The notes under the pieces: model-generated
What the model saw: the letters and a program-made list of their open reading frames with translations, nothing else
The model's database searches: none
What the model was told of the DNA's origin: nothing
Part shown: one piece after another, positions 114 to 33,656 of the stretch
How positions within the stretch are numbered: position 1 is the first letter of the stretch
How the letters are laid out: each line of letters opens with the position of its first letter
Position numbers and translations under genes: made by a program
Assembly: GCA_903889915.1 (NCBI GenBank)
Contig: CAISZK010000098.1
Span: 1-34,471, forward strand
Direction: 5' to 3'
DNA length: 34,471 nucleotides
Origin: an uncultured Bacteroidota bacterium
GTDB taxonomy: Bacteria; Bacteroidota; Bacteroidia; Bacteroidales; CG2-30-32-10

Positions 114-470
114 TTGTACTTTTGTTTGCGACTTTTGGGTAATACTTATTGCGATACTTCATATTTGCAAAAATCACCAAACACTATAATATCTGTTGAT
201 GTAGTAGCTCCAAGTGGTACAGGAGTTAATGAATTTAATATTTCGCCTAACATTTCTATTTTTCCAAATCCAACAACAAACAATTTGACTTTTAATTGCC
301 AGCAAAAATCTAAAATAAAGATTTTAAACATCCAGTGCCAAATAATCAAAACCTTCGAAACAAAAGAGAACGAAACAAACCTTGATGTTTCAAGTTTTTC
401 AAGGGGGATTTATTTGATAAGTGTAGAGACGGACAAGGGGGTTTGGAGAGGGAAATTTGTGAAAGAATAA
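114..470 (+). pseudogene. 5'-truncated remnant of a T9SS cargo gene (C-terminal sorting domain)
   Basis: Only the end of a secreted protein is left. About 35 residues resembling the tail of an extracellular Ig-like domain (CDTSY) lead into a type A sorting domain with the ISIFPNPTTNNL motif, the KILNIQCQIIKT strand and the terminal WRGKFVKE. There is no signal peptide. The only available start is TTG at 114, inside a promoter-like TACTTTTG at 117-124, and the frame is closed by a stop near 66. The sorting domain and the hairpin after the stop are close DNA relatives of those at 1200-1450, 3790-4065 and 6000-6270. The full-length genes nearby carry a signal peptide plus 200-400 residues before this domain, so this is most likely a deletion remnant or a displaced copy of the cassette. 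A short unexported protein could still be made. Confidence 0.6.
117..124 (+). promoter_or_regulatory. Bacteroidota-type -7 box TACTTTTG
   Basis: TACTTTTG fits the TAnnTTTG -7 element exactly. It lies inside the first codons of the truncated cargo remnant, so transcription would start inside the remnant. I see no clear -33 element. This may be the promoter of the original gene left after a deletion, or a chance match. Confidence 0.35.
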
Positions 471-524: not shown

Positions 525-1424
525 ATGAGACACATACTTTTTGCATTATTTGCGATTATTGCTACAGCAACCTATTCTCAAGATTTTGCACCTGTAGGGG
601 CCAAATGGTATTATACAGTTAAATGGGCATGGTCCTGGCAAGGAGAGCAAACTTATATGACTATTGATGCAACCAAAGACACAATAATTGACAGCATAAA
701 TTGCACAGAATTATCTGCATCAACATCATTTTGCGGTGGCTATGAACCCATGATAACCTGGGTATATAGTTCCGACAGCATTGTTTACTTCAAGAATCAA
801 ATTTTTGATCATTTTCAAATTCTGTACAATTTTAAAGCTAAAACAAACGATTCCTGGAAAATTGACTACCCTACAGACATGAGCAATATTGATTCATTGA
901 TTGTTTCTGTTGATTCGGCAACTATTGAAACTATTAATTCAACTCCGCTAAAGGTTTTGTACGTAAAATACACTTCATTAACTGATTCAAATTTTAATTA
1001 TCACTCAAAAATTGTTGAAAAAATTGGTGACTTTAGTTATCTTTTTAACTTAAATAATGACCTTACTATTTGCGATGCTACCTGGTCTGACGGGTTACGT
1101 TGTTATGAAGATTCAGTCTTTGGATTCTATTCAACTGGCGTTACTTCTACGTGTGACTATGTATATGTATTGGGGCTAAACGATGTGAATATTAATGAGG
1201 AAATTGTTACATTATTTCCAAATCCTGCAACCAATTACCTGACTATTGAAACCCCACAGCAAACCACTATAGAAATCTCAAACATCCAAGGCCAAATAAT
1301 CAAAACCCTCGAAACAAAAGAGAACAAAACTAATGTTGATGTTTCTGGCTTTGCAAGGGGGGTTTACATTATAACTGTGGAGACGGATAAGGGGGTTTGG
1401 AGGGGGAAATTTGTGAAGGAATAA
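525..1424 (+). CDS. Secreted T9SS type A sorting domain protein
   Basis: The protein has 299 residues. Residues 1-19 are a Sec signal peptide (LFALFAIIATATYSQ), and cleavage after the Gln is typical of Bacteroidota. The middle, about residues 20-215, is beta-rich with several cysteines and matches no family I recognise. Residues 225-299 form a type A T9SS sorting domain: LFPNPATNYLTI, then a strand with NIQGQIIKTLETKENKTNVDV, then GFARGVYIITVET and the terminal WRGKFVKE. The product should cross the inner membrane by Sec and be exported to the cell surface by T9SS. The coding end and the hairpin after it belong to the repeated cassette of this region, and this copy keeps the uninterrupted NVDVSGF site where two sister genes carry a ten-residue insertion. 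ATG 525 follows an A-rich stretch with no Shine-Dalgarno site. Confidence 0.85.
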   Translation: MRHILFALFAIIATATYSQDFAPVGAKWYYTVKWAWSWQGEQTYMTIDATKDTIIDSINCTELSASTSFCGGYEPMITWVYSSDSIVYFKNQIFDHFQILYNFKAKTNDSWKIDYPTDMSNIDSLIVSVDSATIETINSTPLKVLYVKYTSLTDSNFNYHSKIVEKIGDFSYLFNLNNDLTICDATWSDGLRCYEDSVFGFYSTGVTSTCDYVYVLGLNDVNINEEIVTLFPNPATNYLTIETPQQTTIEISNIQGQIIKTLETKENKTNVDVSGFARGVYIITVETDKGVWRGKFVKE

Positions 1425-2611: not shown

Positions 2612-4036
2612 ATGAAAACAAAAAAAATTACGAAGACTTTTATTACGTTGATAGCAGTAACGATGCTGACAATGATAGTAAAACAAGTTAATGCAACAAA
2701 TTACTTAATCCTGGAGGTAAATACCATCACCAATAATGATAGTGTTTATTATTGCCCCACTGGTTACGATTCAATTATGATTATTGCAAATGGGGGTAAT
2801 GGAGGCAATAACACCTGGATATATCTTAATTATTCCCTTGGTTGGGGTGATACTATACGCAATAACCATAGTGATACTCTTATTTTACCTAAAAGTTCAT
2901 GGGGGGAAATTCAAAATACTAATTCTATATCGGGGTTTAACTATTTCTTTATTTGCCCAATTTATTTTTATGTAACAGGCAGCACAGCTATTTCTTGCGG
3001 AGGCTCTACTAATTTGAATACTTTATCAAATTATACGGGGACAGGTTCTATTACATATAGCTGGTTGCCGGTAACAGGATTAAATAATCCAAACATTGCA
3101 AACCCTGTTGCTAATCCTAATTCAACGACTTATTATACAATGACTGCAATGGTTAATGGTTGTGCTGTTGTTGATACTGTCAAAATTTCAATAATCCCGG
3201 TGAGTGCACCTGAAATTTGTATTGTAGGAGTTGACAGCGCCAAAAAAAATATGATAGTGTGGAATAAACCATTGTCAACTGAAATTGATTCATTTTATAT
3301 TTATAGGGAAACGAGCATGACAAATGTTTATCAGAAAATTGGTATTGTAAGTTATGACAGTTTTAGCGTTTTCATTGATACAAATTCGTTTCCTGATGTT
3401 CAATCAAACAAATACGAACTTTCAATAATAGATAAATGCAGGATTGAATCGGGCACAAGTACTTCGCACAAAACCATGCATCTGAATATTAACCAAGGAA
3501 TAAACCTTTCGTGGGATTTAGCCTGGGAACCTTATGAGGGTTTTACTGTTTCAACCTATAGAATATACAGGGGAACTACAAATTCTAATATGCAACTGAT
3601 AGGAACAACCTCTGGCACTTCTACTCAATACAGCGATTATACCGCTCCTTCCGGATATGTATATTACATGGTTGAAGTGGTTAGTCCCAATAATTGTAAT
3701 CCTTCAAAATCATATAATTCTTCCCGTTCAAATATTGCAACAAATCATCCTCTTGGAATTAATGAAAATAGCAATGCAGAGAATCTGTTTTCAATTTTCC
3801 CTAACCCTGCAACCAATAACCTAACCATCCAGACCCAGCAACAAGCCACCTTAGAAATCTTAAATATCCAAGGCCAAATAATCAAAACCTTCGAAACAAA
3901 AGAGAACAAAACAAATGTTGACCACGTTGGATGGTCATCCTACGTAGTTGATGTTTCAGCTTTTTCAAGAGGGGTTTACATGATAAGTGTAGAGACGGAA
4001 AAGGGGATTTGGAGGGGGAAATTTGTGAAGGAATAG
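2612..4036 (+). CDS. Secreted T9SS protein with Ig-like and Fn3-like regions and an in-frame palindrome insertion
   Basis: ATG 2612 is preferred because it starts a normal signal peptide (MKTKKITKTFITLIAVTMLT to VNA); the longer frame from TTG 2585 adds nine uncharacteristic residues. That gives 474 residues. About 118-195 resembles the Ig-like/PKD-like repeats of Bacteroidota surface proteins (SYTWLP-like core, TTYYTMTAMVNGCAVVDTV). About 205-370 has two Fn3-like halves (IDSFYIYRETS, VSTYRIYRGTTNS). Residues 390-474 are a type A sorting domain ending WRGKFVKE. Within that domain the ten residues HVGWSSYVVD interrupt the NVDV strand. They come from a 30-bp palindromic insertion at 3922-3951 that the relative at 525 lacks. 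The protein is probably an adhesive or binding surface protein; its ligand cannot be told from sequence. Confidence 0.8.
   Translation: MKTKKITKTFITLIAVTMLTMIVKQVNATNYLILEVNTITNNDSVYYCPTGYDSIMIIANGGNGGNNTWIYLNYSLGWGDTIRNNHSDTLILPKSSWGEIQNTNSISGFNYFFICPIYFYVTGSTAISCGGSTNLNTLSNYTGTGSITYSWLPVTGLNNPNIANPVANPNSTTYYTMTAMVNGCAVVDTVKISIIPVSAPEICIVGVDSAKKNMIVWNKPLSTEIDSFYIYRETSMTNVYQKIGIVSYDSFSVFIDTNSFPDVQSNKYELSIIDKCRIESGTSTSHKTMHLNINQGINLSWDLAWEPYEGFTVSTYRIYRGTTNSNMQLIGTTSGTSTQYSDYTAPSGYVYYMVEVVSPNNCNPSKSYNSSRSNIATNHPLGINENSNAENLFSIFPNPATNNLTIQTQQQATLEILNIQGQIIKTFETKENKTNVDHVGWSSYVVDVSAFSRGVYMISVETEKGIWRGKFVKE
3917..3951 (+). repeat. 30-bp palindromic in-frame insertion, copy A, with GTTGA direct repeats
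   Basis: GTTGA at 3917-3921 and again at 3947-3951 bracket a dyad-symmetric core (3922-3946) built as CCACGT-T-GGATG, GT, CATCC-T-ACGTAG. The related gene at 525 has a single GTTGA (1335-1339) at the same place, so the difference is exactly 30 bp and the frame is kept. The right arm here has one more mismatch than copy B. Confidence 0.75.
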
Positions 4037-4038
4037 GT

Positions 4039-4067
4039 GGCACGCTTTGGGAAAGGCACGCTAACAG
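4039..4067 (+). repeat. Post-stop hairpin repeat, copy 3
   Basis: GGCACGCTTTGGGAAAGGCACGCTAACAG follows TAG 4034-4036. CTTT pairs with AAAG across GGG, so stem bases have changed on both sides relative to copy 1 while pairing is kept. That is what selection on the hairpin would look like, although two copies cannot prove it. Confidence 0.6.
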
Positions 4068-4138
4068 AAAAAAATTACAGGACTGGAAATATGTGACGAA
4101 ACTTGAAGACCAAAATGTGTAATAAAATTTAAAAAACA

Positions 4139-4774
4139 ATGAAAAAATTAGTAACAATAGTTATTATTGCAATAATGACAACCTTCATTGCCTGCGGCCC
4201 AAGCGCAAATGAAAAAGCATTGAAAGCAAAACTCGACAGTATTAAAAAGGCTGATTCCATTGCAATAGGAACAACACTGGTAATAAACTGTGATAAAGTG
4301 AATATGCGTACAACTCCCTCTGTGATGGGAGGAATAAAAACAGTTCTGAATTCAGGCTATGTTTGTAAAATGATTGAAAGAGGCCCTGCCGAAAAAATAA
4401 AAGACAGTAATGACTATTGGTATAAAGTAAGTTATAATGGTAATATTGGATGGGTTTTTGGCACTTTCACTTCGCTTGCAGTTTCTTCAAATGCTTCTCA
4501 AATTATTGATAGTTGGGTGGGAAGCTATGGCGATGGCGATGGTTCAGGTGTAACAATTGAGAAAGATGGAAATGGCTATAAAATCGCAATATCGGCTTAT
4601 GGTAAGGTTGAAGGTCCATTCATGAGTAATGAGGAAGGCGGGCAATTGAAATTCAACTATAATGGCAAAATTTCATTTATCAGCCATCATAACAAAGACG
4701 ACAGATTTTATTCAAACGGATCATCCAACTGTATAAAAGTATCATTCGGAAATCAACTTACATATTGCAAATAG
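4139..4774 (+). CDS. Lipoprotein with bacterial SH3 domain
   Basis: The protein has 211 residues. The N-terminus MKKLVTIVIIAIMTTFIAC is a lipoprotein signal with lipobox FIAC and Cys19 as the acylation site. A short charged, possibly coiled linker follows (NEKALKAKLDSIKKADSIAI). About residues 48-115 match a bacterial SH3 (SH3b) domain: VNMRTTPSVMGGIKTVL, then WYKVSYNGNIGWVFGTFT. This is the usual pattern of an SH3b domain, which often binds peptidoglycan or peptides in the envelope. The C-terminal 95 residues (about 117-211) are beta-rich with no recognised family. There is no T9SS sorting domain and no post-stop hairpin, so it is an unrelated gene inside the T9SS cluster. A periplasmic, lipid-anchored location is inferred. 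Confidence 0.8.
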   Translation: MKKLVTIVIIAIMTTFIACGPSANEKALKAKLDSIKKADSIAIGTTLVINCDKVNMRTTPSVMGGIKTVLNSGYVCKMIERGPAEKIKDSNDYWYKVSYNGNIGWVFGTFTSLAVSSNASQIIDSWVGSYGDGDGSGVTIEKDGNGYKIAISAYGKVEGPFMSNEEGGQLKFNYNGKISFISHHNKDDRFYSNGSSNCIKVSFGNQLTYCK

Positions 4775-4793
4775 ATTTGCTCATAAGGATAAA

Positions 4794-4946
4794 ATGAACA
4801 GAGTCCTGAAACATTATAAAACCCGTCGCTCAGTTTTTGCACCGCCCAAAAGTCCCGAAGCTTTGGAATGTACTCCTTTCGGTTATAACCCGGGATTTGT
4901 GATCCCACAAAAAGGAAGTAATTTGGCAATATGTCGCAACACATAA
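4794..4946 (+). CDS. Possible small ORF of 50 residues, no recognised family
   Basis: ATG 4794 opens a 50-codon frame (begins MNRVLKHYKTRRSVF, ends ICRNT) preceded by AAGGAT at a spacing suited to ribosome binding. It fills most of the 221-base gap between the SH3 lipoprotein and the next secreted protein. It has no signal peptide or motif I know. Its central part is proline-containing and looks like ordinary coding sequence. It may be a real small gene, a remnant of a longer one, or chance. Confidence 0.25.
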   Translation: MNRVLKHYKTRRSVFAPPKSPEALECTPFGYNPGFVIPQKGSNLAICRNT

Positions 4947-4995
4947 CGAAGGAACAACAATTGTAACACAACAAACAATACATAAAATCAAAAGC

Positions 4996-6240
4996 ATGAA
5001 AAACATTCTCAACATTTTTATAGCCCTGTTTCTGCTGAATTGCCCTGGTATTTCAACAGCATTTTCAGCAGGTCAGACTTCGCCTCATACTTACAAACAA
5101 ACCAATTCTTTGAACCATGACCTGGTTTTAGTAAAACCATTGGTGAATTTTAATGACACCAACGGTGGATTTTACAGCGATTATTACAAAGAGCAGGTGA
5201 ATAATATTTATTGCGGAGGGGTAGTGAAGAACAGCGGGCTTTTAAGCACTACCCATGTTTATTTGCTGGTACACATTTTAGGCTACAACAATAATGTGAT
5301 GGCTACATATACATCCGATACAATTCCACTTATGGCAGCAAACGAAACTGATACTTTGAAAGTTCAGCCATTCACAAATACCGGCAATTGGTACAATTTT
5401 AAAATTTCCTTTGAATTAATGAGCGATTCTACCGATGAAAATGCAGCCAACAATATTGATACTACTGCTACTTTAACGATGTGGGATCCCATGTGGTCGC
5501 ATGTATCAAGAGCAAATGTCCCTACGGCTACTTTAAACATAAACAATATTCCCAACTTTCATTCAGGAGATTTTATCGGGGCAACTTTAAAAATTCCTAA
5601 CTATAGTTTCCATTGGGCAGTAATGTTGTCGGTTTATTTAACTGATATTTTGCCCGATTCAGTAACCTTGGTTGCTGAAATTTATGAAAATGGAATTCTG
5701 AAAGGTTCTGATACTATTATAAGTAATACACAAGGTTGGGTAAGTACACCGCTCACATATTATTATTTCACAAATCAAATATCAACCGACAGCCTTTATT
5801 ATTTTGGTGTGAAAATAATTTGTCCAAACGGTACTAACATTCCGATAGGAATTGACACATCTGCATTTCATAATTTTCAGACAGAAACAGTAGCCAAAAT
5901 TGGCAATACCTGGACAACACTGAATTTTGTTCCCCTGATACAATTGGTTTGCGACCCCGAAGGTATCCCGGAGATCCCGAATAATGATCTGATTTCTGTT
6001 TACCCCAACCCTGCAACCAACAACCTGACCATACAGACTACCCGGCAAGCCACTATAGAAATCTTAAACATCGAGGGTCAAATAATCAAACGCATAGAAA
6101 CAAAAGAGGGCAAGACAAATGTTGACCACGTTGGATGGTCATCCTACGTGGTTGATGTTTCAGGCTTCTCAAAAGGGATTTACATGATAAGAGCACAGAC
6201 GGACAAGGGGCTGTGGATGGGGAAATTTGTGAAAGAATAA
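4996..6240 (+). CDS. Secreted T9SS type A sorting domain protein with palindrome insertion
   Basis: The protein has 414 residues. The signal peptide is at about 1-25 (MKNILNIFIALFLL to AFSAG). Residues 45-155 look like a beta-sandwich with spaced Asn/Thr strands (VVKNSGLLSTTHVYLLVHI), reminiscent of CARDB-like or Fn3-like folds. Residues 180-310 form a second beta-rich region (GDFIGATLKIPNYSF). The C-terminal domain (about 325-414) is the type A T9SS sorting domain: ISVYPNPATNNLTI, ILNIEGQIIKRIE, KGIYMIRAQTDKG and WMGKFVKE. It carries the same ten-residue HVGWSSYVVD interruption as the gene at 2612, from the insertion at 6126-6155. The protein is probably surface displayed. Its function is unknown, and the N-terminal part is unrelated to the other cassette genes, so the sorting cassette has been joined to different passengers. 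Confidence 0.8.
   Translation: MKNILNIFIALFLLNCPGISTAFSAGQTSPHTYKQTNSLNHDLVLVKPLVNFNDTNGGFYSDYYKEQVNNIYCGGVVKNSGLLSTTHVYLLVHILGYNNNVMATYTSDTIPLMAANETDTLKVQPFTNTGNWYNFKISFELMSDSTDENAANNIDTTATLTMWDPMWSHVSRANVPTATLNINNIPNFHSGDFIGATLKIPNYSFHWAVMLSVYLTDILPDSVTLVAEIYENGILKGSDTIISNTQGWVSTPLTYYYFTNQISTDSLYYFGVKIICPNGTNIPIGIDTSAFHNFQTETVAKIGNTWTTLNFVPLIQLVCDPEGIPEIPNNDLISVYPNPATNNLTIQTTRQATIEILNIEGQIIKRIETKEGKTNVDHVGWSSYVVDVSGFSKGIYMIRAQTDKGLWMGKFVKE
6121..6155 (+). repeat. 30-bp palindromic in-frame insertion, copy B, with GTTGA direct repeats
   Basis: GTTGA at 6121-6125 and 6151-6155 flank the insertion. The dyad spans 6125-6152: ACCACGTTGGATGG followed by TCATCCTACGTGGT, pairing at 12 of 14 positions. 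The encoded residues HVGWSSYVVD sit in a loop of the sorting domain. Confidence 0.75.
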
Positions 6241-6244
6241 GTAT

Positions 6245-6273
6245 GGCACGCGTTGGGAAACGCGCGACAACAG
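6245..6273 (+). repeat. Post-stop hairpin repeat, copy 4
   Basis: GGCACGCGTTGGGAAACGCGC, then GACAACAG, follows the TAA ending at 6240. CGCGTT pairs with AACGCG across GGGA, as in copy 1. Confidence 0.7.
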
Positions 6274-22165: not shown

Positions 22166-22200
22166 CGCAACCTTGAACTTTGAACCTTAAACATTGAACG
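22166..22200 (-). repeat. Heptamer tandem repeat (GTTCAAR family)
   Basis: Read on the minus strand, GTTCAAT, GTTTAAG, GTTCAAA, GTTCAAG and GTTGCGG follow one another. This lies in the gap ahead of cutC. Confidence 0.55.
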
Positions 22201-22221
22201 CATTAACAACAAACATTTCTT

Positions 22222-22863
22222 ATGATAAAAATAGAAGTTGTTGCATACACACTCGACTCAGCGATAATGGCTGCCGATAATGGCGCACATCGCATTGAAC
22301 TTTGCTCAGGAATGGCTGAAGGTGGCACTACCCCATCCTTTGGTACTATTGCCGCAGCAAGTGAAATTTTGGAGATACCCATTCATGTAATGATCCGGCC
22401 ACGTGGTGGTGACTTTGTTTATTCCCCTACCGAGTTTGAGTCAATGAAGATTGATATTGAGATCTGCAAAAAGCTGAATGTTGATGGTGTTGTTTTCGGG
22501 ATCCTTAATCCCGATAATACTGTTGATAAAGAACGCTGCAAAGAACTTGCTCAGCTTGCACTCCCTCTGACTTCCAATTTTCATCGTGCGTTCGACAGGT
22601 GCAGTGACCCGTACAAATCCCTTGAAGATATTATCGAGTGCGGCTTTCAAAGGATACTCACATCAGGCAGAGAAAAAATTGCAATGGATAGTTGTGGAAG
22701 ACTTGCCGACCTTGTCAGGAAATCAGGCGATCGAATCATCATCATGCCGGGTGGTGGAGTGCGAAAAGAAAATCTCAAAACGCTTGCAAATATTACAAGA
22801 GCATCAGAATTTCACACTTCCGCTATTAATGAATTGCAGGAAATGCTCAACGTGGTTAAATAG
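22222..22863 (+). CDS. cutC: CutC family protein, short form
   Basis: The protein has 213 residues and no signal peptide. The CutC fold is clear: IEVVAYTLDSAIMAADNGAHRIELCSG, GGTTPSFGTI, IPIHVMIRPRGGDFVYS, VDGVVFGIL, FHRAFDRCSD, GFQRILTSG and IMPGGGVRKENL. These cover the TIM-barrel strands of the family, linked historically to copper homeostasis although the catalytic role is unsettled. Typical members have about 240-250 residues. Here the chain stops soon after FHTSAINELQEMLNVVK, so the usual region after HSSA with the MRYRN-type segment and the final helix is missing. The sequence after the stop is repeat-like (TTCAAGG). The 3' end of the gene may have been lost or replaced; the protein could still fold. 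It probably belongs to a separate unit from the downstream membrane gene. Confidence 0.85.
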   Translation: MIKIEVVAYTLDSAIMAADNGAHRIELCSGMAEGGTTPSFGTIAAASEILEIPIHVMIRPRGGDFVYSPTEFESMKIDIEICKKLNVDGVVFGILNPDNTVDKERCKELAQLALPLTSNFHRAFDRCSDPYKSLEDIIECGFQRILTSGREKIAMDSCGRLADLVRKSGDRIIIMPGGGVRKENLKTLANITRASEFHTSAINELQEMLNVVK

Positions 22864-22877
22864 TTTAATGTTCATAG

Positions 22878-22898
22878 TTCAAGGTTCAAGGTTGCAGG
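22878..22898 (+). repeat. Heptamer tandem repeat (GTTCAAG) after cutC
   Basis: GTTCAAG, GTTCAAG, GTTGCAG runs directly downstream of the cutC stop. It is the same heptamer family as the minus-strand run at 22166-22200, in the opposite orientation, so the two bracket cutC. Confidence 0.6.
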
Positions 22899-22920: not shown

Positions 22921-23301
22921 GTGTTTCTGTATCATTTTCTCGATTTCTTCTTTCTTATTTTTCATACAATTCTCACACTTTTTAATCTGTTGGGCTGGAT
23001 ATGGAAAAAGACAAGGCTTGCCAATTTCATCTCTCTTCTCCTGACTGGTTTTGCCTGGTTTGGTTTGGGCATTTTTTATGGCATTGGTTATTGCCCGCTG
23101 ACTGACTGGCATTGGGATGTACTTGAAAAGTTAGGTGTGAAAAATCTACCTGATTCTTACATTACCTACATTATTCAACGACTGACAGGCATCAGGATGA
23201 ATGATCAATTTGTTGAAGCAGTAACATTGATATGCTTTATTGTCGCACTATTTATGTCTGTCTATTTGAATTTCTTTAGGAAGAAGTTAAAAGTGTGCTA
23301 A
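22921..23301 (+). CDS. DUF2784 family small membrane protein
   Basis: GTG 22921 is preferred as the start because it gives the usual family start (MFLYHFLDFFFLIFHT); TTG 22915 is also open. That gives 126 residues. Three to four hydrophobic segments are seen (about 3-22, 37-58, 99-118). The family mark is the sequence LFNLLGWIWKKTRLANF followed by YGIGYCPLTDWHW; the YCPLTDWHW block is conserved in DUF2784 proteins. They are inner-membrane proteins of unknown function. The stop codon lies inside the repeat that starts at 23291 (AAAGTGTGCTAA), so the last residues (KVC) come from repeat DNA. The true original C-terminus may have differed. Confidence 0.75.
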   Translation: MFLYHFLDFFFLIFHTILTLFNLLGWIWKKTRLANFISLLLTGFAWFGLGIFYGIGYCPLTDWHWDVLEKLGVKNLPDSYITYIIQRLTGIRMNDQFVEAVTLICFIVALFMSVYLNFFRKKLKVC

Positions 23302-23451
23302 AGTGTACTAAAGTGTCTAAAGTTACCGGATAAACAGAGATTATGACGCTTTGAGATCATCACGAATTCACTTTTCTCTAAACACACTACCATTGTTTTT
23401 GCTACTGCTGCTACTTCAAGTACTTTAGCACACTTTGGTAACCGTTTCTTT
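23291..23451. repeat. Repeat element with AAAGTGTACT inverted ends, copy 1
   Basis: The left part reads AAGTGTGCTAAAGTGTACT and on through GTCTAAAGTTACCGGATAAAC. The right part reads CTACCATTGTTTTTGCTACT, then CTTCAAGTACTTTAGCACAC and TTTGG. The ends are inverted relative to each other. Copy 2 at 24071-24302 has the same order, the same left GTTACCGGATAAAC, and the same right CCATTGTTTATGCTACTTC. The middle parts are diverged. Confidence 0.65.
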
Positions 23452-23481: not shown

Positions 23482-23784
23482 TCATTTTAATCTTTTACAA
23501 TGAATCACAGAATAGATAATCAGGTTATTTTTTACCAGTCTATAAATAAAGATATAGGTATGTTCAAAAACTGCACAATGCATTCCATGTTTTTTATACA
23601 CAGGGTGATTACTTACAGGATATTTATCAGGGAAATTTGCAAGAGATCTGCCAAAAGCATAAAGTCGTTCAAGATAATTTTGAGCAGTATCAGGATAGCC
23701 TTTTTCTGCAATATACCATGCTACAGAAGCAATATTAGTTGCAGCCTTTTCGGTAAATACAACAGTTATTTTTCTCTGCTCCAT
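23482..23784 (-). CDS. RelE/ParE-type toxin
   Basis: The protein has 100 residues. The fold signs of the ParE/RelE superfamily are present: ITVVFTEKAATNIASVAWYIAEKG with a first strand and two helices, then a linking helix (AQNYLERLYAFGRSLANFPDKYP), then the beta-sheet residues CAVFEHTYIFIYRLVKNNLIIYSVIHCKRL. The typical tail (IYRL, then HCKR) is found in RelE/ParE toxins. These act on ribosome-bound mRNA (RelE) or DNA gyrase (ParE); the sequence does not say which. The start overlaps the end of the antitoxin gene by 19 bases, giving the antitoxin-first order of these operons. The pair sits between two copies of a repeated element, which suggests acquisition or movement as a unit. Confidence 0.8.
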   Translation of the reverse strand: MEQRKITVVFTEKAATNIASVAWYIAEKGYPDTAQNYLERLYAFGRSLANFPDKYPVSNHPVYKKHGMHCAVFEHTYIFIYRLVKNNLIIYSVIHCKRLK

Positions 23785-24070: not shown

Positions 24071-24302
24071 TAAGTGCCTAAAGTGTACTAGAGTGTACTA
24101 AAGTGTCTAAAGTTACCGGATAAACTGAGATTATTGCGAATTGGAATCATTGCATTATCTATTTCAATTACTCAAAATACACAGCCTCTACCATTGTTTA
24201 TGCTACTTCAAGTACTTTAGCACACTTTAGACACTTTAGTACACTCTAGTCACTTTAGTACACTTTAGCACACTTTAGACACTCTAGACACTCTAGTACA
24301 CT
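24071..24302. repeat. Repeat element with AAAGTGTACT inverted ends, copy 2
   Basis: Left end AAGTGCCTAAAGTGTACTAG, then AGTGTACTAAAGTGTC and GTTACCGGATAAAC as in copy 1. The right end is expanded to eight or more units of CTTTAGTACA/CTCTAGTCA type (24208-24302), the inverse of the left-hand units. It lies directly between the antitoxin promoter and the M50-like gene. Confidence 0.65.
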
Positions 24303-24311
24303 TCTTTTTCT

Positions 24312-30810: not shown

Positions 30811-31020
30811 CTACCATAATGCCGTCACTACCGTGACTTTTGTTTGAGCGTTATTAAACTATAATACCAAAATGTCGTCACTACCGTGACTTTAGTTTAA
30901 GCTTATTATTATTGTACTACCAATATGCCGTCACTCCGTGACTCTCATTTGAGCATTATTAAACTGTACTACCTATCTGTCGTCAGCTCGTGACTTTCGT
31001 TCAAGCGGATTTTAAATATT
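30811..31020. repeat. Array of four 53-bp tandem repeats with internal GTCAC/GTGAC dyads
   Basis: The dyads start at 30824, 30877, 30930 and 30982, a period of 53, 53 and 52 bases. Each unit has CTACC, AATATG-like sequence, CCGTCACTACCGTGACTTT (unit 3 lacks two inner bases; unit 4 has GTCAG with CTC), then TTTGAGCATTATTAAACT. A weak fifth unit may precede it near 30760. This lies in a 520-base gap between convergent genes with no gene in it. Confidence 0.75.
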
Positions 31021-31023
31021 CTG

Positions 31024-31066
31024 CCAGGCTGTTTTTCAAACAAAATATGCAATAATAATAGCCTGG
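31024..31066. repeat. Long-loop inverted repeat CCAGGCT/AGCCTGG
   Basis: CCAGGCT (31024-31030) and AGCCTGG (31060-31066) are perfect complements across a 29-base AT-rich loop. It sits between the 53-bp array and the terminator. Confidence 0.45.
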
Positions 31067-33300: not shown

Positions 33301-33656
33301 AATTCTTTCTGAAATGTGTATGTTACAAAATTATTATTTCTGGTTTAAACAAATGTTATCAGGTGTTTTTTTAACAATAATTCCTGACTGCGAAGATATG
33401 CAATCTCTTTTAAAATCCAACAAAAACAGTTCACGGATCAATGTTCAAAGTTTAATGTTATAGAGTTCAAAGTTGACTTAACCCTGAACAATATCCCATT
33501 TATAAACCTCTAAGAATATATGCAGAATGACGCTGCAACCTTAAACTTTACAACCCTGAACTTTTAAACTTTTCTACTCATATACTCCTCAACCTGATCA
33601 CTGTGTTGAAAAATATTTTTTAATCAGGATACAATAATTTAACAGTTTTAACGTTC
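33301..33656. other. Gene-free gap with degenerate GTTCAAA repeats
   Basis: No gene is seen in this stretch. From about 33438 to 33475 and 33538 to 33570 there are degenerate repeats of GTTCAAA/GTTTAAT type in both orientations (AATGTTCAAAGTTTAATG, AACCTTAAACTTTACAACC), related to the heptamer runs around cutC. The rest is AT-rich with no clear hairpin. A promoter for the LytTR gene may lie here but I cannot place it. Confidence 0.5.

Follow-up and report, generated by a model that had tools for sequence, protein, structure and literature searches.

A short palindromic element carried in frame at one site of T9SS sorting domains in an uncultured Bacteroidota bacterium

In-frame palindromic repeats represent a rare case of selfish DNA turned into protein. 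Those of Rickettsia, the Rickettsia palindromic elements (RPEs), are mostly longer than the 30-bp insertion considered here, with RPE-1 spanning about 100-150 bp. Repetitive extragenic palindromes (REPs), of the GTAG and CGTC superfamilies, constitute a second comparable system; some of them are located in frame within genes, and CGTC REPs have been reported from Bacteroidetes, without a dedicated transposase (PMC3733652). Described intragenic REPs include copies at about the same recB site in two Xanthomonas species, and the in-frame elements of Rickettsia are described as well (PMC3733652). The first-pass annotation of the DNA analysed here knew of no such element in Bacteroidota; REPs of Bacteroidetes and in-frame REPs of other bacteria were already on record.

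The window, a 34,471-nt stretch, represents the forward strand of contig CAISZK010000098.1 (C98) of an uncultured Bacteroidota bacterium (GTDB Bacteroidales; CG2-30-32-10; GCA_903889915.1), the assembly being a draft of 476 contigs with an estimated contamination of 4.3%. Congruent with the first-pass annotation, the genes at 2612 and 4996 each carry the dyad as a 30-bp in-frame insertion that adds ten residues (Table 1). The gene at 525 displays the empty site with one GTTGA, the ORF at 114 is empty also, and occupied and empty paralogous sites can be compared within one genome. The dyad pattern ACCACGTTGGATGGTCATCCTACGTGGT is matched with one mismatch by copy A and with none by copy B, and not at all in 100 dinucleotide shuffles, which together with the absence of matches in reversed-pattern controls rules out a chance origin. 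Twelve of the 14 stem positions pair in copy B, the same count as obtained previously, and 11 of 14 in copy A, the two copies differing by a single base in the right arm, also as first described. The TIGR04183 match spans the insert and exceeds the cut-off in both occupied proteins. A GGCACGCGTTGGGAAACGCGC-like dyad is repeated after the stop codon of the four sorting-domain genes (470-500, 1424-1455, 4036-4066 and 6242-6272), and hence the four cassettes of the window have common 3' ends too. The window also contains four head-to-tail repeats of ~52 bp (CCGTGACT...GTCGTCA) between two genes at 30831-31037, as well as mutually inverted ACTTTAG / CTAAAGT arrays (23290-23360 and 24072-24308) on either side of a short minus-strand ORF at 23482-23784.

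Table 1. Positions of the palindrome copies, their flanking repeats and the sorting-domain genes in the window.
Feature	Position	Strand	Remarks
28-bp palindrome, copy A	3921..3948	+	in frame, sorting domain of gene at 2612; insertion 3922-3951; model R1 41.6 bits
28-bp palindrome, copy B	6125..6152	+	in frame, sorting domain of gene at 4996; insertion 6126-6155; model R1 45.9 bits
Left GTTGA of copy A	3917..3921	+	TTGA is the candidate 4-bp target duplication
Right GTTGA of copy A	3947..3951	+	
Left GTTGA of copy B	6121..6125	+	
Right GTTGA of copy B	6151..6155	+	
Secreted protein, occupied C-terminal T9SS type A sorting domain (residues 395-474)	2612..4036	+	TIGR04183 E 4.9e-12
Secreted protein, occupied T9SS type A sorting domain (residues 335-414)	4996..6240	+	TIGR04183 E 4.8e-11
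Related secreted protein, empty site, single GTTGA 1335-1339	525..1424	+	TIGR04183 E 9.6e-15
Short ORF, same kind of sorting domain, empty site (TNLDVS)	114..470	+	TIGR04183 E 4.7e-12

At up to three mismatches, 11 copies of the 28-bp dyad were recovered from the genome (none with the reversed-pattern control), and a twelfth, more decayed, was found on contig 16. There are thus at least 12 coding copies on eight contigs, two each on C98, C57, C85 and C440 and one each on C138, C254, C302 and C16. All 12 occupy the same site (TNV-DHVGxSSYVV-DVS) of a T9SS type A sorting domain, close to its end, in one orientation and one phase, in frame, with a 26-bp core and a net gain of 30 bp. The single orientation is explained by selection, since the element in reverse would give a TGA stop in the frame of the domain. 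The host domain (TIGR04183 / PF18962) is C-terminal and matches TIGR04183 above the cut-off, and the protein regions upstream of it do not form one family, only some of them being mutually related. The genome encodes at least 150 sorting domains, and most of those read are empty, amounting to dozens of empty paralogous domains; the other type A members read likewise have no ten-residue insertion between their strands 4 and 5. With 12 copies on eight contigs, scattered on the domain tree, the earlier concern that only two copies exist, both within one recent duplication, is dispelled, and a single cassette duplication as the source of all copies is ruled out, although ordinary duplication of a cassette may account for the two copies on C98 taken by themselves. 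The suggestion of several copies at unrelated genes was not borne out either, as the coding copies all share one homologous codon position in one domain type. The coding type of the element was not found in five family members, which constitute the entire family-level comparison, in about 240 other members of the order and 394 members of the phylum, or in GTDB contigs and viral contigs. A looser peptide-coded scan returned four GTDB matches, none of them in a sorting domain, and these were hence taken as chance. Moreover, a search of the open-access literature retrieved no palindrome in T9SS sorting domains.

Outside the sorting domains, a relaxed search recovered relatives of the element, ACCCCGTTGGATAAATATCCTACGGGGT. 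A covariance model built from 14 sequences recognizes, with an E-value cut-off of 0.01, about 65 separate places in the genome, 12 of them in sorting domains. The non-coding relatives that were read are mostly located between genes, several overlapping extended open frames with a probable start codon downstream. The hallmark of the family is a stem with a fixed mismatch and arms ACCCCG..CGGGGT, the core being CCMCGTTGGAT-loop-ATCCTACGKGG with a T.T mismatch that is conserved in the short forms. Non-coding cores measure 25, 26, 28, 29, 31 or 59-61 bp, with loops of 3-9 bases in some members and a centre of ~33 bases in others. The 59-61 bp class (L175-L189; contigs 80, 279, 134, 314, 385 and others) has ends ACCCCGTTGGATA / TATCCCACGGGGT around its variable ~33-base centre, often displays C opposite the mismatched T, and may constitute a MITE family of its own. 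Inverted neighbours were observed among the relatives on C418 and C173, and two ACCCCG-type copies are present in one genome from another family of the same order. L161 and L162 were discarded as ordinary perfect terminator-like palindromes lacking the T.T mismatch, and comparison with Rfam gave nothing convincing, only one sub-threshold miRNA match. In the window, AT-rich GTTCAAAGTTTAA-type intergenic arrays (22167-22210, 22852-22898 and 33429-33471) are of the kind of sequence that surrounds many intergenic hairpins.

Coding and short non-coding forms have length, stem and T.T mismatch in common and differ by the one compensatory pair of the whole set, A4-T25 versus C4-G25. Most coding copies carry A4-T25, as opposed to none of the short non-coding relatives read, which have C at position 4 and mostly G at position 25. 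The A4-T25 variant was not found outside sorting domains, nor the common non-coding variant inside them. This confinement points to one putative founder of the coding copies.

The flanking duplication proposed in the first-pass annotation is strengthened by the relatives, as all nine 25-bp intergenic copies exhibit an exact 4-bp direct repeat, TTTA or TTCA, where the coding copies carry TTGA, exact in eight of the 12. None of five 26-bp intergenic copies has an exact direct repeat, the longer classes are without it, and the flanks of the 59-61 bp class are mostly complementary, not direct. Agreement between left and right flanks is modest when the intergenic copies are taken alone (p 0.026), and many of these sit in GTTYAA arrays, themselves a source of direct repeats. 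A 4-bp target duplication in the short class is likely, though not proven, judging from these flanks. The candidate duplication, TTNA, lies next to the element ends CCCCGTTGGAT / ATCCNACGGGG, beside the stem ends ACCMCG / CGKGGT. A 26-bp core and 4 bp add up to 30 bp and keep the frame, whereas a 25-bp core would shift it, which fits with coding copies that are all 26 bp and non-coding ones of varied length. As for a mobilising enzyme, the genome harbours six Y1_Tnp (Y1/RAYT-like) transposase genes (L148-L153); model R1 detected no element near these six loci, and linkage to a RAYT was rejected at all of them. Around L148, on C339, lie repeats of another kind, the TTTGTCCCTACGGGACAT type. A partial search recovered no parent insertion sequence with the ends of the element.

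On a tree of 70 sorting domains, calculated with the insert left out, occupied and empty domains are interleaved, with 10 changes of occupancy (parsimony does not distinguish gain from loss), at least six of which are forced by well-supported branches, and none of 200 bootstrap trees yielded one origin of occupancy. An occupied and an empty domain on C440 are sisters with a support of 100/100, and their flanks are 96% identical to the left and 81% to the right of the site; given the lower value, the right part may stem from elsewhere. The draft state of the assembly and its estimated contamination leave some mixing of strains conceivable. The mean pairwise difference among coding copies is 0.12 in the insert versus 0.37 in the flanks, codon pairs encoding one and the same residue differ in 11.5% versus 44.7% of cases, and the insert is less diverse than every one of 62 nine-codon windows taken from the flanks. 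The insert of C57:18954 is identical to that of C440:3370, with flanks only 48% alike. As its divergence falls far below that of the flanks, synonymous sites included, the element has moved without them, and vertical descent of the inserts appears very unlikely from these comparisons. Occupied copies are clustered on contigs (p=0.006; 0.02 omitting one C98 copy), and their extra similarity relative to empty domains is mainly found at about -6 to +12 bp from the site, a zone that may reflect either the copying of a very short tract or preference for a target.

The account that we favour, with modest confidence, is that a hairpin of REP/MITE-like type came to lie in frame in one sorting domain and was then copied from domain to domain in very short tracts. 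The many-copy hairpin family would be the source within this genome, with a 26-bp member inserting once or very few times at AAT-GTT-GAT-GTT (Asn-Val-Asp-Val) of a T9SS sorting domain, where a 4-bp duplication of TTGA together with the core would produce 30 bp and an open frame. This founder would subsequently have been copied to the same site of other sorting domains, the flanks being left behind; gene conversion over very short tracts, or template switching at the hairpin, is the most likely route, with the common AATGTTGATGTTTC as guide. Drift after arrival would cause older copies to lose pairs and change amino acids. We infer the single founder, the copying mechanism and the near-neutrality, and homology-guided copying is favoured because the coding variant is found only in sorting domains, the site is constant and occupied copies are clustered on contigs. 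On the other hand, the domain of C57:18954 is only 40-48% identical to others, offering little homology for ordinary gene conversion, the TTNA repeats resemble genuine duplications made on insertion, whereas conversion would do no more than copy them along, four of the 12 coding copies lack an exact repeat, and the narrow zone of similarity could reflect target preference. The main rival is a real if minority possibility, namely that a mobile hairpin inserted directly and repeatedly at a preferred target (about AATGTTNA) with duplication of TTNA, the Asn-Val-Asp-Val codons matching the target and the 12 copies representing independent or serial insertions. Congruent with this, exact repeats flank every 25-bp intergenic copy (TTTA/TTTA or TTCA/TTCA) and most coding copies (TTGA/TTGA), left flanks are often AATGTTTA or AAAGTTTA in intergenic and AAATGTTGA in coding copies, which a flank matrix ranks among the top 0.4% of window positions, and at C57:18954 the flank codons on either side remain those of its own domain. 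The left flank of that same copy however scores poorly on the target matrix, no coding copy was found at other sites and no A4-T25 outside sorting domains, the direct repeat is missing from the longer classes and from the five 26-bp intergenic copies tested, and GTTYAA arrays create such repeats by themselves. If the hairpin did home repeatedly into the Asn-Val-Asp-Val codons, duplicating TTNA, with 26-bp core plus 4 bp always in frame, it would constitute a protein-domain-specific in-frame insertion element, which we regard as doubtful. One ancestral insertion with vertical inheritance and many precise losses would explain the identical site through a single origin, but is barely credible, considering that inserts are much less diverged than flanks, even identical across domains with 48% flank identity, and that the losses would need base-exact repetition.

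Two further explanations assign the insert a function. Modelled with AlphaFold, the occupied domain shows seven strands (mean pLDDT 79), and the best Foldseek matches of the model include 8qb1 and 8glk, which are T9SS C-terminal domains and support the fold. Strands 4 and 5 are joined by a longer loop, and by alignment SSYVVD fills the place of KTNVDV of the empty domain. The predicted fold suggests a reason for the tolerance of the insert, which lengthens one loop and supplies a replacement strand (YVVDV for TNVDV). Changes among the coding copies mostly alter the amino acid (H to P, V to I, Y to C, V to T, and Y/W/L), and five of the 12 have broken pairs without a change of the partner. Thus, neither peptide nor stem appears strongly conserved, and the insert looks tolerated rather than functional. 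It is improbable that the ten residues form a selected module, e.g. for secretion, cleavage or anchoring, with the DNA kept through the peptide: all copies do share place and frame, and DHVGYSSYVV is present in most, but synonymous sites nearly frozen next to variable flanks are not given by peptide selection alone, the observed changes are mostly amino-acid changes, and closely related domains lack the insert. Retention of the hairpin for a role in the mRNA (stability, attenuation or ribosome bypass) we consider highly improbable, despite a predicted RNA fold with flanks of -20 kcal/mol (z -4.0 to -5.3), as no compensatory change is seen among coding copies, pairs are lost as above, and an insert that is a multiple of three and devoid of stops makes bypass unneeded.

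Occupied and empty states in many paralogs, beside a non-coding reservoir, render the origin, the mode of copying and the tolerance of the protein testable, and the T9SS sorting domain would be a recombining cassette that spreads small inserts. The likeness to RPEs proposed in the first-pass annotation holds for the arrangement, an in-frame palindrome in normal protein genes with empty homologs and tolerated, decaying copies. It does not extend to location, since RPEs are found in unrelated genes at many sites and this 30-bp element at one site of one domain type; we therefore describe it as resembling an RPE without placing it as one. As with REPs, it is a repeated stem-loop of 20-40 bp, mainly intergenic, with some inverted doublets and some in-frame copies, yet neither a GTAG nor a CGTC tag is present where its stem ends (definition in PMC3733652), and its intragenic copies are all at one homologous site. 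GTAG-type REPs moreover flank a RAYT gene, as opposed to none of the six Y1 genes here. The 59-61 bp relatives, with 13-bp terminal inverted repeats around a variable centre, and the 4-bp flanking repeats of the 25-bp copies are reminiscent of MITEs, although the element is far shorter than is typical and the longer class has mostly complementary flanks. What sets the element apart from known REPs is the absence of a GTAG/CGTC tag, and from REPs and RPEs alike the confinement of the genic copies to one domain site.
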